This document shows positions 31,137-35,304 of a stretch of DNA of 36,016 bases, one piece after another. The notes below the pieces were generated by a model. The model was not told the origin of the DNA and did no database searches. It saw only the letters and a list, made by a program, of their open reading frames with translations. Position 1 is the stretch's first letter. Each line of letters opens with the position of its first letter. Origin of the DNA: Chloroflexota bacterium. GTDB taxonomy: Bacteria > Chloroflexota > UBA11872 > VXOZ01. The stretch covers positions 1 to 36,016 of the forward strand of contig JAPOQA010000018.1 in assembly GCA_026710945.1 (NCBI GenBank). The letters run 5' to 3'. The translations under genes were made by a program, and so were the position numbers.

Positions 31137-32867
31137 ATGCTATCTCCCCGCTACCGCTGGCAGGTAGCGCCTCTCGCTCCGGTGACGCTCTTTAATTCCT
31201 TGCCAACGTGCAATCGACTGGTAGTGCAACTGCTCTTCAATCGCGGCTACAGAACACCCGAAAACATCCAAGGCTTTCTCCAGGGCGAAGATGTGCGGGA
31301 GAACGATCCGTTTCTCCTCAAGGGTATGGACGCAGCGGTCGCCCGCATTCTCGAGGCAGTGCGCAACCGTGAGTGTATTGGGGTGTTTGGGGATTACGAC
31401 GCGGACGGCATCAGCGCCGCCGCCATTCTCCGCGAGGCGCTGGACCATCTCGGCGCAAAGGTCGTCGTCCGCTTGCCACACCGCGTTACGGATGGCTACG
31501 GGATTACGGACCAGTCGATCGAAGCGCTTGAGGCGGAGGGGGTTGGGCTGCTCGTAACAGTCGATTGCGGCATAAGTGCCGTCGGCCCGGTGGCTCTGGC
31601 GAAGCAACGAGGGATGGATGTGATTGTGACGGATCACCACCAGCCTCCACCGGAGCTCCCCGCAGCACACGCCATCATTAATCCCTGGCTGCACGACTGC
31701 CAGTACCCATTTCCGGAACTCTGCGGGGCCGGTCTGGCATACAAGCTGGCCTGCGCGCTCCTTACCGCGGTGGGATTGGTCGGCGATGCGGTGTCCGCCA
31801 CACTTACCGAACTCCGCGCATTTGCCGCCCTTGCAACCGTCGCGGACGTTGTGCCTTTACGCAGCGAAAACAGAGCAATCGTTACGGCGGGCCTCGCGGC
31901 GTTGCGGGATACCGAGCATGCCGGCTTGTGCGCGCTCATGCAGGTTGCCGGTGTGGATCCGGCGACAATCAATAGCCGCAGTATTGGCTTTGCGCTGGCC
32001 CCGCGCCTCAACGCGGCCGGACGGATGGCCCATCCCCGCCTTGCTTACGACCTATTGACGACAAAGGACCACGCACGCGCCCAGGTCTTGGCCGCAGAGT
32101 TGCAGCAGCTCAATCAGCTTAGACAGCAAGAGACGAAACGTCTTGTCGCCGACGCGCAAAGTCAAGTTGAACCGGCCCAGCAAGACGAGGCCTTGCTCTG
32201 GGTCGAGGGCGAGGATTGGCCGACCGGAATAATCGGCCTGGTGGCCGGCAAGCTCTCCGAGGAATTTGGCAAGCCGACGCTCGCCGTTGCCGTAGGCGAC
32301 GCCGAAGCGATTGGCTCTTGTCGCAGTATTCAGGGTTACGACATCGCCGCTGCGCTTGCCGCACGGGGAGACCTCATGCGGCGCCACGGCGGCCACCCCC
32401 AGGCTGCCGGGTTTGCGGTTGTAAATGAACGGCGTGCCGCCCTGCGAGATGCGCTGCAGGCTGACGCGCGCCGGTTGCTTGAGCCCACCGACTTGCAGCC
32501 GCGACTAGATATTGACTGTCAGGTAGCGGCCCACAAGATGGACCTCAACCTTCTTGACGAAATCAACGTCCTCTCCCCCTTTGGAGCGAGTAATCCGGAA
32601 CCGCGCTTTCTCAGCCGGAGCCTCGCATTGAGTGGTACGCGCGTTGTCGGCACCAACCACCTCCGCACAACTTTTGCGCTAAATGGCACGTCCATTACAG
32701 GTATCGGCTTTCACATGGCAGACCGCGCCCGGGGGCTGAGCCAGGGGCAGACCCTCGATGTGGTATATTCGTTGCAAGAGAATACGTGGGGCGGCTTTTC
32801 TCGTCTCGAGTTTGTCCTGCAAGACTTGCAGGCAGCTAACGCTGACCAAAGTTCGAATGGCGAGTGA
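31137..32867 (+). CDS. recJ: single-stranded-DNA-specific exonuclease RecJ
   Basis: 5'-3' exonuclease for single-stranded DNA used in recombination, mismatch and base-excision repair. At 576 residues it is full length. The DHH phosphoesterase motifs are DYDADG (86-91), DCG (143-145) and DHH (166-168), all metal ligands. The DHHA1 domain has RRHGGHPQAAGFAV with Gly418-Gly419-His420. An oligonucleotide-binding domain at the C-terminus ends with VVYSLQENTWGGFSRLEF. The ATG at 31137 has only a poor purine-rich site. The Rel gene starts 19 bases after its stop, so the two are probably one transcript. Confidence 0.97.
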   Translation: MLSPRYRWQVAPLAPVTLFNSLPTCNRLVVQLLFNRGYRTPENIQGFLQGEDVRENDPFLLKGMDAAVARILEAVRNRECIGVFGDYDADGISAAAILREALDHLGAKVVVRLPHRVTDGYGITDQSIEALEAEGVGLLVTVDCGISAVGPVALAKQRGMDVIVTDHHQPPPELPAAHAIINPWLHDCQYPFPELCGAGLAYKLACALLTAVGLVGDAVSATLTELRAFAALATVADVVPLRSENRAIVTAGLAALRDTEHAGLCALMQVAGVDPATINSRSIGFALAPRLNAAGRMAHPRLAYDLLTTKDHARAQVLAAELQQLNQLRQQETKRLVADAQSQVEPAQQDEALLWVEGEDWPTGIIGLVAGKLSEEFGKPTLAVAVGDAEAIGSCRSIQGYDIAAALAARGDLMRRHGGHPQAAGFAVVNERRAALRDALQADARRLLEPTDLQPRLDIDCQVAAHKMDLNLLDEINVLSPFGASNPEPRFLSRSLALSGTRVVGTNHLRTTFALNGTSITGIGFHMADRARGLSQGQTLDVVYSLQENTWGGFSRLEFVLQDLQAANADQSSNGE

Positions 32868-32886: not shown

Positions 32887-35304
32887 ATGGCACTGGCACA
32901 CTCCGCCACGTCACCCGACGAGACCCAATTACGCACGGTCGACGAACTGCTCGCGGCTGTAGCCGCGTATGTGAGCGGAGAGCCCGACGCGCGCAAGCAG
33001 GAACTCAACCGCATTCGACAGGCCTTTGCCTTCGCCGACCGCGCCCACGAAGGGCAGGTACGCAAGTCCGGCGAACCCTTTGCGCAGCACCCCCTCTGCA
33101 CCGCGCTCCTGCTCGCCGAAATCCGCATGGATACCAGCACCATTTGCGCCGGTCTGCTCCATGACTGCGTGGAAGACACCGACGTAACGCTGGATGACGT
33201 GAGTACTCAATTTGGCGACGACGTGGCATTGCTCGTGGACGGTGTTACCAAGCTCACCCAGCTCGACTTCTTGAATCTGGAAGATACCCAGGCCGAGAAC
33301 CTCCGTAAGATGTTTCTGGCGATGGCACGGGACATCCGGGTGGTGATCGTCAAGCTCGCGGACCGCCTGCACAACATGCGCACGCTGGCCTATGTTGAGC
33401 CGGAACGGCAGCGCCGCAAAGCCCACGAAACCCTGGAGATTTACGCGCCCCTCGCCAATCAACTCGGTATGGGTCACTGGAAGTGGCAGTTGGAGGACGT
33501 GGCCTTCGCCGTGCTCCATCCGGATGTCTATCGGCAGATTGAGGCCACCTTAGCGGAGAGATCCTCGGCGCAGGACACGGTTCTGCAAGAAGCGCTGCAG
33601 ACCCTCACGCACGAACTCAAGCGCGCCGGCATTCAGGGAGAGGTGACCGGCAGGCCGAAGCAAATTACGAGTACGTGGTTCAAGATGCAGCGGAAGGGCG
33701 TGGGTATCCAGGAAATCTACGACCTCATTGGCCTGCGCGTCATTGTCAGCACCGTGCAACAGTGCTATGCCACGCTCGGTTTAGTGCATACCCTGTGGAA
33801 GCCGATACCCGGCCAGTTCGACGACTACATCTCGGTACCAAAGTCGAACAACTATCGTTCATTGCACACTGCCGTCATGGGACCGCGCGGCCAGCCGGTG
33901 GAAGTGCAACTGCGCACCGAGCACATGCACCAGGAAGCTGAACTGGGCGTTGCCGCACATTGGCGCTACAAAGAGGGAGCGCGGGGTGGAAACGTGGAAG
34001 AACGCCTGGCCTGGCTACGCCAGTTGCTGACCTGGCAGGAGGAACTCTCCAGCGCGCGCGATTTCGTTGAGACCGTCAAGGCCGACATCTTCGAGGACCA
34101 GGTCTTCGTGTTCACGCCACGTGGAGATGTGAAAGCCCTGCCCGCCGGTTCCACGCCAATCGACTTTGCCTATCGCATTCATACCGACGTGGGACACCGT
34201 TGCATCGGCGCCAAGATCAACGGCCAAATCAAGCCGCTCTATACGGAGCTTCAGAATGGCGACGTCGTCGACATTCAGACGAGCAAGTCGCCGAAAGGCC
34301 CCAGCCGCGACTGGATCAACGTCGTCAAGAGCAGCCACACCCGCGAACGTATTCGCCAGTGGTTCAAGAAACAAGAACGCGCGGAGAACGTCGCGCGGGG
34401 CAAAGACATGCTGGACAAAGAGATCCGGCGCTTGGGGCAGGGCGACCTGAACAGCGTGGATGAGGCGCGCGTTCGCACGTTGTGCAAGTCTTTCACCTTC
34501 AACACGGCGGAGGACCTCTTTGCGGCCATCGGCTACGGCGCCATTTCCACCCAGCAAGTGGTCACGAACCTGAGTCGTTCCAGCGAGCAAGCGGGACCCG
34601 CTCCTGTAGAGCCGAGTTTTCTACCTGCGGAACCGCGAACGGATAGGACGACGGGTACGGTGCAGGTGATGGGCGAGGGCAACATGCTTACCCGTCTCGC
34701 AACCTGCTGCAAACCGTTACCCGGCGATCACATTGTCGGCTACATTACGCGCGGGAGGGGCGTTACCGTACACCGCCGGGACTGCCGCAACGTGCACAGC
34801 GTAAAGGACAAAGAACGCCTGGTGCCGGTGGATTGGGGCGATCAAGTATTATGTCATGACGCGCGCAATTTGCCGCTTCACCTGGCGCAGTGCTGCGGCC
34901 CCCAGGAAAATGACAAGATCAAGGGCTACATTGTCGATGGCGGGGTGGAGGTCCATCGCAGCGACTGCCGCCGCGTGCGTCAGAATGGCCCGCCGGGTAC
35001 TCTCGCCGATGTATCTTGGTCCCGCGCGAGCAAGCAACAGACCCTCTATCCGGTAGCCCTGCGCGCCGAGTGCATGGATAGACCGGGGCTCCTGCGCGAC
35101 ATTAGCACCGTCGTGACCGAAGAGAAATTCAACATCAATGCCGCCAATGTTCACACCGACGGCGGCACGGCCACCATTACCTTCACGGTCGAGGTAACCG
35201 GCGTGGGCGGACTGGCCGATCTCATGGCCAAAATCGAACGCGTCGGCGGTGTCGTCAGTGTGCAGCGTGACGTGCGCACCGACCGGCCCCAACGAGATAG
35301 CTGA
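32887..35304 (+). CDS. bifunctional (p)ppGpp synthetase/hydrolase (Rel/SpoT) with duplicated zinc-finger domain
   Basis: Makes and degrades the alarmones pppGpp/ppGpp. 805 residues, against roughly 720-750 for usual long Rel proteins. The HD hydrolase domain is intact (His54, His92, Asp93, and HDCVEDT at 92-98). The synthetase domain has RPKQITSTWFKMQRKG and SNNYRSLHTAVMGP, but the loop that is usually RxKD in bifunctional and ExDD in RelA enzymes reads QFDD (310-313). A TGS domain follows (VFTPRGDVKALPAGSTPIDF). Two zinc-finger (ZFD/RIS) modules come next: Cys607/Cys608, His629, Cys633 and Cys669/Cys670, His690, Cys694. The ACT domain begins near residue 728 (ALRAECMDRPGLLRDISTVV). It is downstream of recJ by 19 bases. 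Confidence 0.96.
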   Translation: MALAHSATSPDETQLRTVDELLAAVAAYVSGEPDARKQELNRIRQAFAFADRAHEGQVRKSGEPFAQHPLCTALLLAEIRMDTSTICAGLLHDCVEDTDVTLDDVSTQFGDDVALLVDGVTKLTQLDFLNLEDTQAENLRKMFLAMARDIRVVIVKLADRLHNMRTLAYVEPERQRRKAHETLEIYAPLANQLGMGHWKWQLEDVAFAVLHPDVYRQIEATLAERSSAQDTVLQEALQTLTHELKRAGIQGEVTGRPKQITSTWFKMQRKGVGIQEIYDLIGLRVIVSTVQQCYATLGLVHTLWKPIPGQFDDYISVPKSNNYRSLHTAVMGPRGQPVEVQLRTEHMHQEAELGVAAHWRYKEGARGGNVEERLAWLRQLLTWQEELSSARDFVETVKADIFEDQVFVFTPRGDVKALPAGSTPIDFAYRIHTDVGHRCIGAKINGQIKPLYTELQNGDVVDIQTSKSPKGPSRDWINVVKSSHTRERIRQWFKKQERAENVARGKDMLDKEIRRLGQGDLNSVDEARVRTLCKSFTFNTAEDLFAAIGYGAISTQQVVTNLSRSSEQAGPAPVEPSFLPAEPRTDRTTGTVQVMGEGNMLTRLATCCKPLPGDHIVGYITRGRGVTVHRRDCRNVHSVKDKERLVPVDWGDQVLCHDARNLPLHLAQCCGPQENDKIKGYIVDGGVEVHRSDCRRVRQNGPPGTLADVSWSRASKQQTLYPVALRAECMDRPGLLRDISTVVTEEKFNINAANVHTDGGTATITFTVEVTGVGGLADLMAKIERVGGVVSVQRDVRTDRPQRDS

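Follow-up and report, generated by a model that had tools for sequence, protein, structure and literature searches.

Does the Rel protein encoded at the end of a 36,016-nucleotide stretch of Chloroflexota DNA (the whole stretch analysed, hereafter the window) hold the ribosome twice, or does its second zinc-finger module serve another role? Rel is nearly universal among bacteria, and its zinc-finger domain (RIS or ZFD) normally clamps it onto the ribosome. The Rel of the window contains two RIS modules in series, and our searches of the open-licence literature turned up no RSH protein described with a duplicated RIS or zinc finger. A survey of the RSH superfamily describes a fixed six-domain layout, from which the rare exceptions are losses (PMC3153485). 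In contrast to the losses reported before, the tandem RIS is a gain, an old and conserved duplication of a ribosome-anchoring domain.

The rel gene is the final gene of the window and occupies positions 32887-35304 of the forward strand. Its 2,418 bp encode 805 amino acids with zero internal stops, and the reading frame, Pfam domains, and conserved catalytic residues identify the product as a predicted bifunctional long RSH protein. The domains follow in the order HD hydrolase, synthetase, TGS, alpha-helical, RIS1, RIS2, and ACT. Pfam recognizes, in order, HD_4 (2.8e-52), RelA_SpoT (5.9e-41), TGS, RelA_AH_RIS (residues 480-641), and ACT_4 (residues 719-794), and the match to TIGR00691 exceeds its cut-off. 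The ACT/RRM domain, residues about 720-797 (35044-35278, forward strand), is positioned directly after the second RIS module, as delimited by the ACT_4 match and by Foldseek matches to the Rel ACT domains 3ibw, 2ko1, and 6lxg. The best solved relatives of the protein are mycobacterial Rel, Bacillus Rel, and E. coli RelA, and the source genome yielded one Rel match when searched. An alignment of 43 Rel proteins contains invariant HDxxED residues of the hydrolase domain (H92-D93/E96-D97) as well as invariant D159, N163, R256, K258, D279, and E339, of which D279 and E339 are the catalytic Asp and Glu of the synthetase. Because the residues of both active sites are invariant among these relatives, the protein should be bifunctional, with hydrolase and synthetase activities. 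The HD, synthetase, TGS, helical, RIS, and ACT features of long RSH proteins are all present, and the departure from the published layout is in the number of RIS domains, which is one in that layout (PMC3153485). Thus, by all tested features except the single RIS, the protein is a Rel of variant layout. A recJ-like gene is located 19 bp upstream of rel, at positions 31137-32867; RecJ-type motifs are found upstream of rel in 6/6 genomes of the window's genus but not upstream of rel in families f3 and f4.

Both RIS modules are complete and are arranged between the helical domain and ACT with a period of 62 residues. Module 1 comprises residues 592-650 (34660-34836, forward strand) and is canonical, with an intact TRGRG loop; its assignment is based on the alignment with E. 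coli RelA, dN/dS, and the pattern of predicted secondary structure. Module 2 comprises residues 654-713 (34846-35025, forward strand) and is diverged; it was assigned from profile searches, hhalign, conserved ligands, and the same AlphaFold2 pattern. The putative zinc ligands are C607/C608/H629/C633 in module 1 (codons at 34705, 34708, 34771, and 34783) and C669/C670/H690/C694 in module 2 (codons at 34891, 34894, 34954, and 34966). Cys607, Cys608, His629, and Cys633 align without gaps to Cys612, Cys613, His634, and Cys638 of E. coli RelA, and the position of R629 is aligned as well. The two modules end in V-x-W strands, VDW (648-650) and VSW (711-713). An initial sequence-only reading of the window had proposed two tandem CC...HxxxC modules, each followed by a V-D/S-W strand, and the residues and strands are as it described. 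The span that it gave, 34681-34974, lies inside the modules and covers residues 599-696 only, so that the full modules extend beyond it on both sides. The extra module had also been suggested to explain the length of the protein, and the excess over single-module relatives is 61-63 amino acids.

Comparisons of sequences and profiles show that module 2 is genuinely homologous to the RIS. The two modules of the 805-residue Rel share 44% identity over 54 aligned residues, and across carriers of the tandem the protein identity between modules is only about 30-45%. In 18/18 proteins, the pair scores 10-19 standard deviations above 2,000 shuffled versions of module 2, none of which scored as high. 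By hhalign, the profile of module 2 aligns to those of single-copy RIS domains with an E-value of 2.7e-17, and a profile built from module 2 only matched RelA, Rel, and SpoT chains alone in the PDB, always on their RIS (1e-11 to 8.8e-07). The Pfam family PF19296 (RelA_AH_RIS) fails to recognize module 2 in 18/18 members. A Pfam match of module 2 to DUF6233 (E 0.0043 for the whole protein) is under the cut-off of that family and was treated as chance.

AlphaFold2 predictions were made with clade alignments, once from the C-terminal part and once from the full-length protein (mean pLDDT 70.8 and 77.4, respectively), and the same module pattern was obtained both times. Each module is predicted with moderate confidence to consist of a short strand, a beta-hairpin, a short helix adjoining the last Cys, and a closing strand. 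In the metal-free model, the pLDDT of module 2 is about 64-86 per block. With pTM values of 0.42 and 0.52, the positions of the modules and ACT relative to one another are unreliable. Foldseek matches to the prediction are led by ribosome-bound RelA and Rel, followed by ACT domains.

The tandem RIS is present in 29/41 genomes of the window's class: 6/6 in family f1, which contains the window's genus, 19/19 in f3, and 4/5 in f4. A single RIS is found in the remaining f4 genome (G011) and in the sister families f2 and f5 (nine and two genomes), from which the tandem is absent. A profile search of 359 other Chloroflexota genomes, drawn evenly from across the phylum, detected no tandem; in this search tandem Rels score 165-214 bits and the best single-module Rel 109. 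The tandem was likewise absent from 299 sampled Pseudomonadota and, at E<=1e-33, from 348 sampled Bacillota, in searches with a profile built from Chloroflexota that a very different independent duplication in these two phyla could escape.

In a maximum-likelihood tree of Rel calculated with the columns of module 2 left out, all carriers group in a single clade (bootstrap 99, SH-aLRT 93), with G011 nested inside. The tree indicates that the history of the tandem is one gain and one loss. Several independent gains are unneeded, as the insertion site is shared, the linker is alignable, and the tree requires two changes. The Rel of G011 has a single RIS and a long branch, and appears to have lost module 2 cleanly. 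The duplication is old, because likeness of the two modules in DNA is confined to one 28-nt core (79%), which rules out a recent event, and because the carrier families are only about 50% identical across the whole Rel. The tandem architecture, and its origin in one duplication of the entire ~60-residue RIS in an ancestor shared by several families within one Chloroflexota class, are almost certain. The internal duplication proposed in the sequence-only reading is thus well supported by profile homology, conserved ligands, the complete domain unit, and the single origin, and it does define a clade, with one loss.

The two modules have diverged unequally. In all 29 carriers, module 2 retains its four putative zinc ligands together with Ile678 and Gly680, and Val689 is retained in 28 of them; Val711 and Trp713 are invariant in 18 aligned members. 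The Cys-Cys...His-x3-Cys pattern of the RIS is therefore present in module 2, whereas the PGDxIxGxIT(R/Q)GRG loop with Arg629 is not: the PGDxIxGxITRGxG signature is lost from the 29 carriers, and in 29/29 the module is one residue short exactly where Arg629 is located in the E. coli protein. In module 1 of the carriers, ITR is invariant and position 629 is occupied by Arg or His. In f3, RGHG replaces RGRG of module 1 in 19/19 genomes, which places His where E. coli RelA has Arg629 (e.g., L007:1741-2118 and L011:3232-3609). Because the f3 module 1 itself has His, loss of the Arg629-type arginine alone does not prove lost ribosome contact. In three genus-level groups, dN/dS calculated by a simple counting method with Jukes-Cantor correction only is 0.12, 0.12, and 0.31 for module 2 and 0.02, 0.06, and 0.05 for module 1. 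The values for module 2 are two to six times those for module 1, yet below 1, indicating that module 2 is under purifying selection and that the divergence is asymmetric, with module 1 unchanged. The mean net positive charge is slightly higher in module 2 (2.3) than in module 1 (1.4), and with this charge module 2 may bind rRNA directly in another mode.

Arg629 in the RIS loop of E. coli RelA touches ribosomal RNA at the A-site finger. The RIS and ACT of E. coli RelA form one superdomain on bridge B1a, in which the helix of the RIS rests on the A-site finger, ACT touches the A-site finger and L16, and D675 contacts L16 (PMC4974054). RelA binding is severely impaired when the A-site finger is deleted (PMC5829649). 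The toxicity of RelA without its RRM is countered by the ZFD substitutions R629E or C612A/C613A, changes that are expected to interfere with recognition of the A-site finger and the ribosome (PMC7058999). Autoregulation through the C-terminal half operates in cis (PMC6719525). In the Rel of the window, Asp731 of ACT corresponds to E. coli D675 and is kept. Because the surface of module 1 is canonical and ACT retains Asp731, the usual ribosome dock of these two domains is probably kept. The sequence-only reading had suggested that the duplication may change ribosome or ligand sensing, and the absence of the Arg629 equivalent and its loop from module 2 points to a ribosome contact that is changed rather than doubled.

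We favor a reading in which the tandem duplication was kept, module 1 and ACT are canonical, and module 2 is a specialized extra, and give it a probability of roughly 0.55 as a whole. Module 1 and ACT would dock on the A-site finger and bridge B1a as in E. coli RelA. Module 2 would sit between them as a zinc-stabilized accessory element that presents a different surface, and would add or replace one contact, with neighbouring rRNA, with a ribosomal or other protein, or with the enzyme's own N-terminal half. This contact would tune the placement of ACT and the control of the synthetase/hydrolase switch by the C-terminal domain. For the accessory, non-canonical role of module 2 taken by itself, the odds are about even. 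A more specific and tentative proposal is that module 2 is a neofunctionalized zinc finger, a second Rel-specific input between anchor and ACT for a ribosomal, protein, or metal signal; if so, the stringent factor of the carriers would receive an additional regulatory input undescribed in model bacteria.

Module 2 might instead bind to a site like that of module 1, the A-site finger or the S19 side, as a backup or for a tighter hold. It shares domain family and ligands with module 1, is mildly basic, and has a similar HR..C core. However, the conserved loop is gone from module 2, with the Arg629 equivalent deleted in 29/29, one RIS and ACT already fill the A-site-finger site in the E. coli structures (PMC4974054), and the A-site finger is not lengthened in the five carriers compared, so that a second hold of this kind is unlikely. 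A co-lengthened A-site finger was also rejected as the reason for module 2, since in the 23S comparison neither the five carriers nor G011 have an H38 loop of unusual length. The 23S rRNA gene L164 of the same-genus genome G001 is about 3,791 nt long, compared with 2,925, and the extra ~0.9 kb contains an open frame resembling a LAGLIDADG homing endonuclease (GFVDGEGYFF...), which suggests an intron. The f2 genome G012 has two 23S matches (L166 and L169, 2267 and 1777 bits), which may be divergent copies or contamination.

A metal or redox sensor, in which zinc would be held less tightly at the second CC/H/C site and Rel activity would switch with the zinc or thiol state, is improbable: the four ligands are retained while the remaining module 2 drifts, as the function of a metal site needs, but structural zinc alone predicts the same retention. 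It is similarly improbable that module 2 is a near-neutral ornament, tolerated without a function of its own and retaining folding needs only. Its faster evolution fits this explanation, as does its loss from G011, whose Rel has no other visible damage; nevertheless, module 2 is kept in 29/30 genomes of the carrier clade, in three families with Rels about 50% identical, and its dN/dS is well below 1. A mis-assembly or frameshift can be dismissed, as the frame is open in 29 independently assembled genomes and the module copies are too far apart in protein and barely alike in DNA.

The pair constitutes a natural experiment that can separate the roles of the RIS in zinc-dependent structure, ribosome binding, and autoregulation, because one copy is canonical and the other is without the ribosome-contact loop. 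G011, with module 2 lost, provides a natural deletion control.

Among known systems, the Rel proteins of Bacillus subtilis and Mycobacterium (6htq, 8fr8) share with the Rel of the window the full HD-SYNTH-TGS-AH-RIS-ACT arrangement and both catalytic sites, and their RIS aligns closely with module 1. They have one RIS, whereas here a diverged second RIS precedes ACT. E. coli RelA (5iqr, 5kps, 5l3p) is similar in the Cys-Cys-His-Cys spacing of module 1, the Arg629 position, and ACT, but it is hydrolase-dead and has one RIS, and its Arg629 position is missing from module 2. PF19296 spans the helical domain and module 1 (480-641) and not module 2. Acinetobacter SpoT (7qpr) has one RIS only, which is still matched by the module 2 profile at 8.8e-07.
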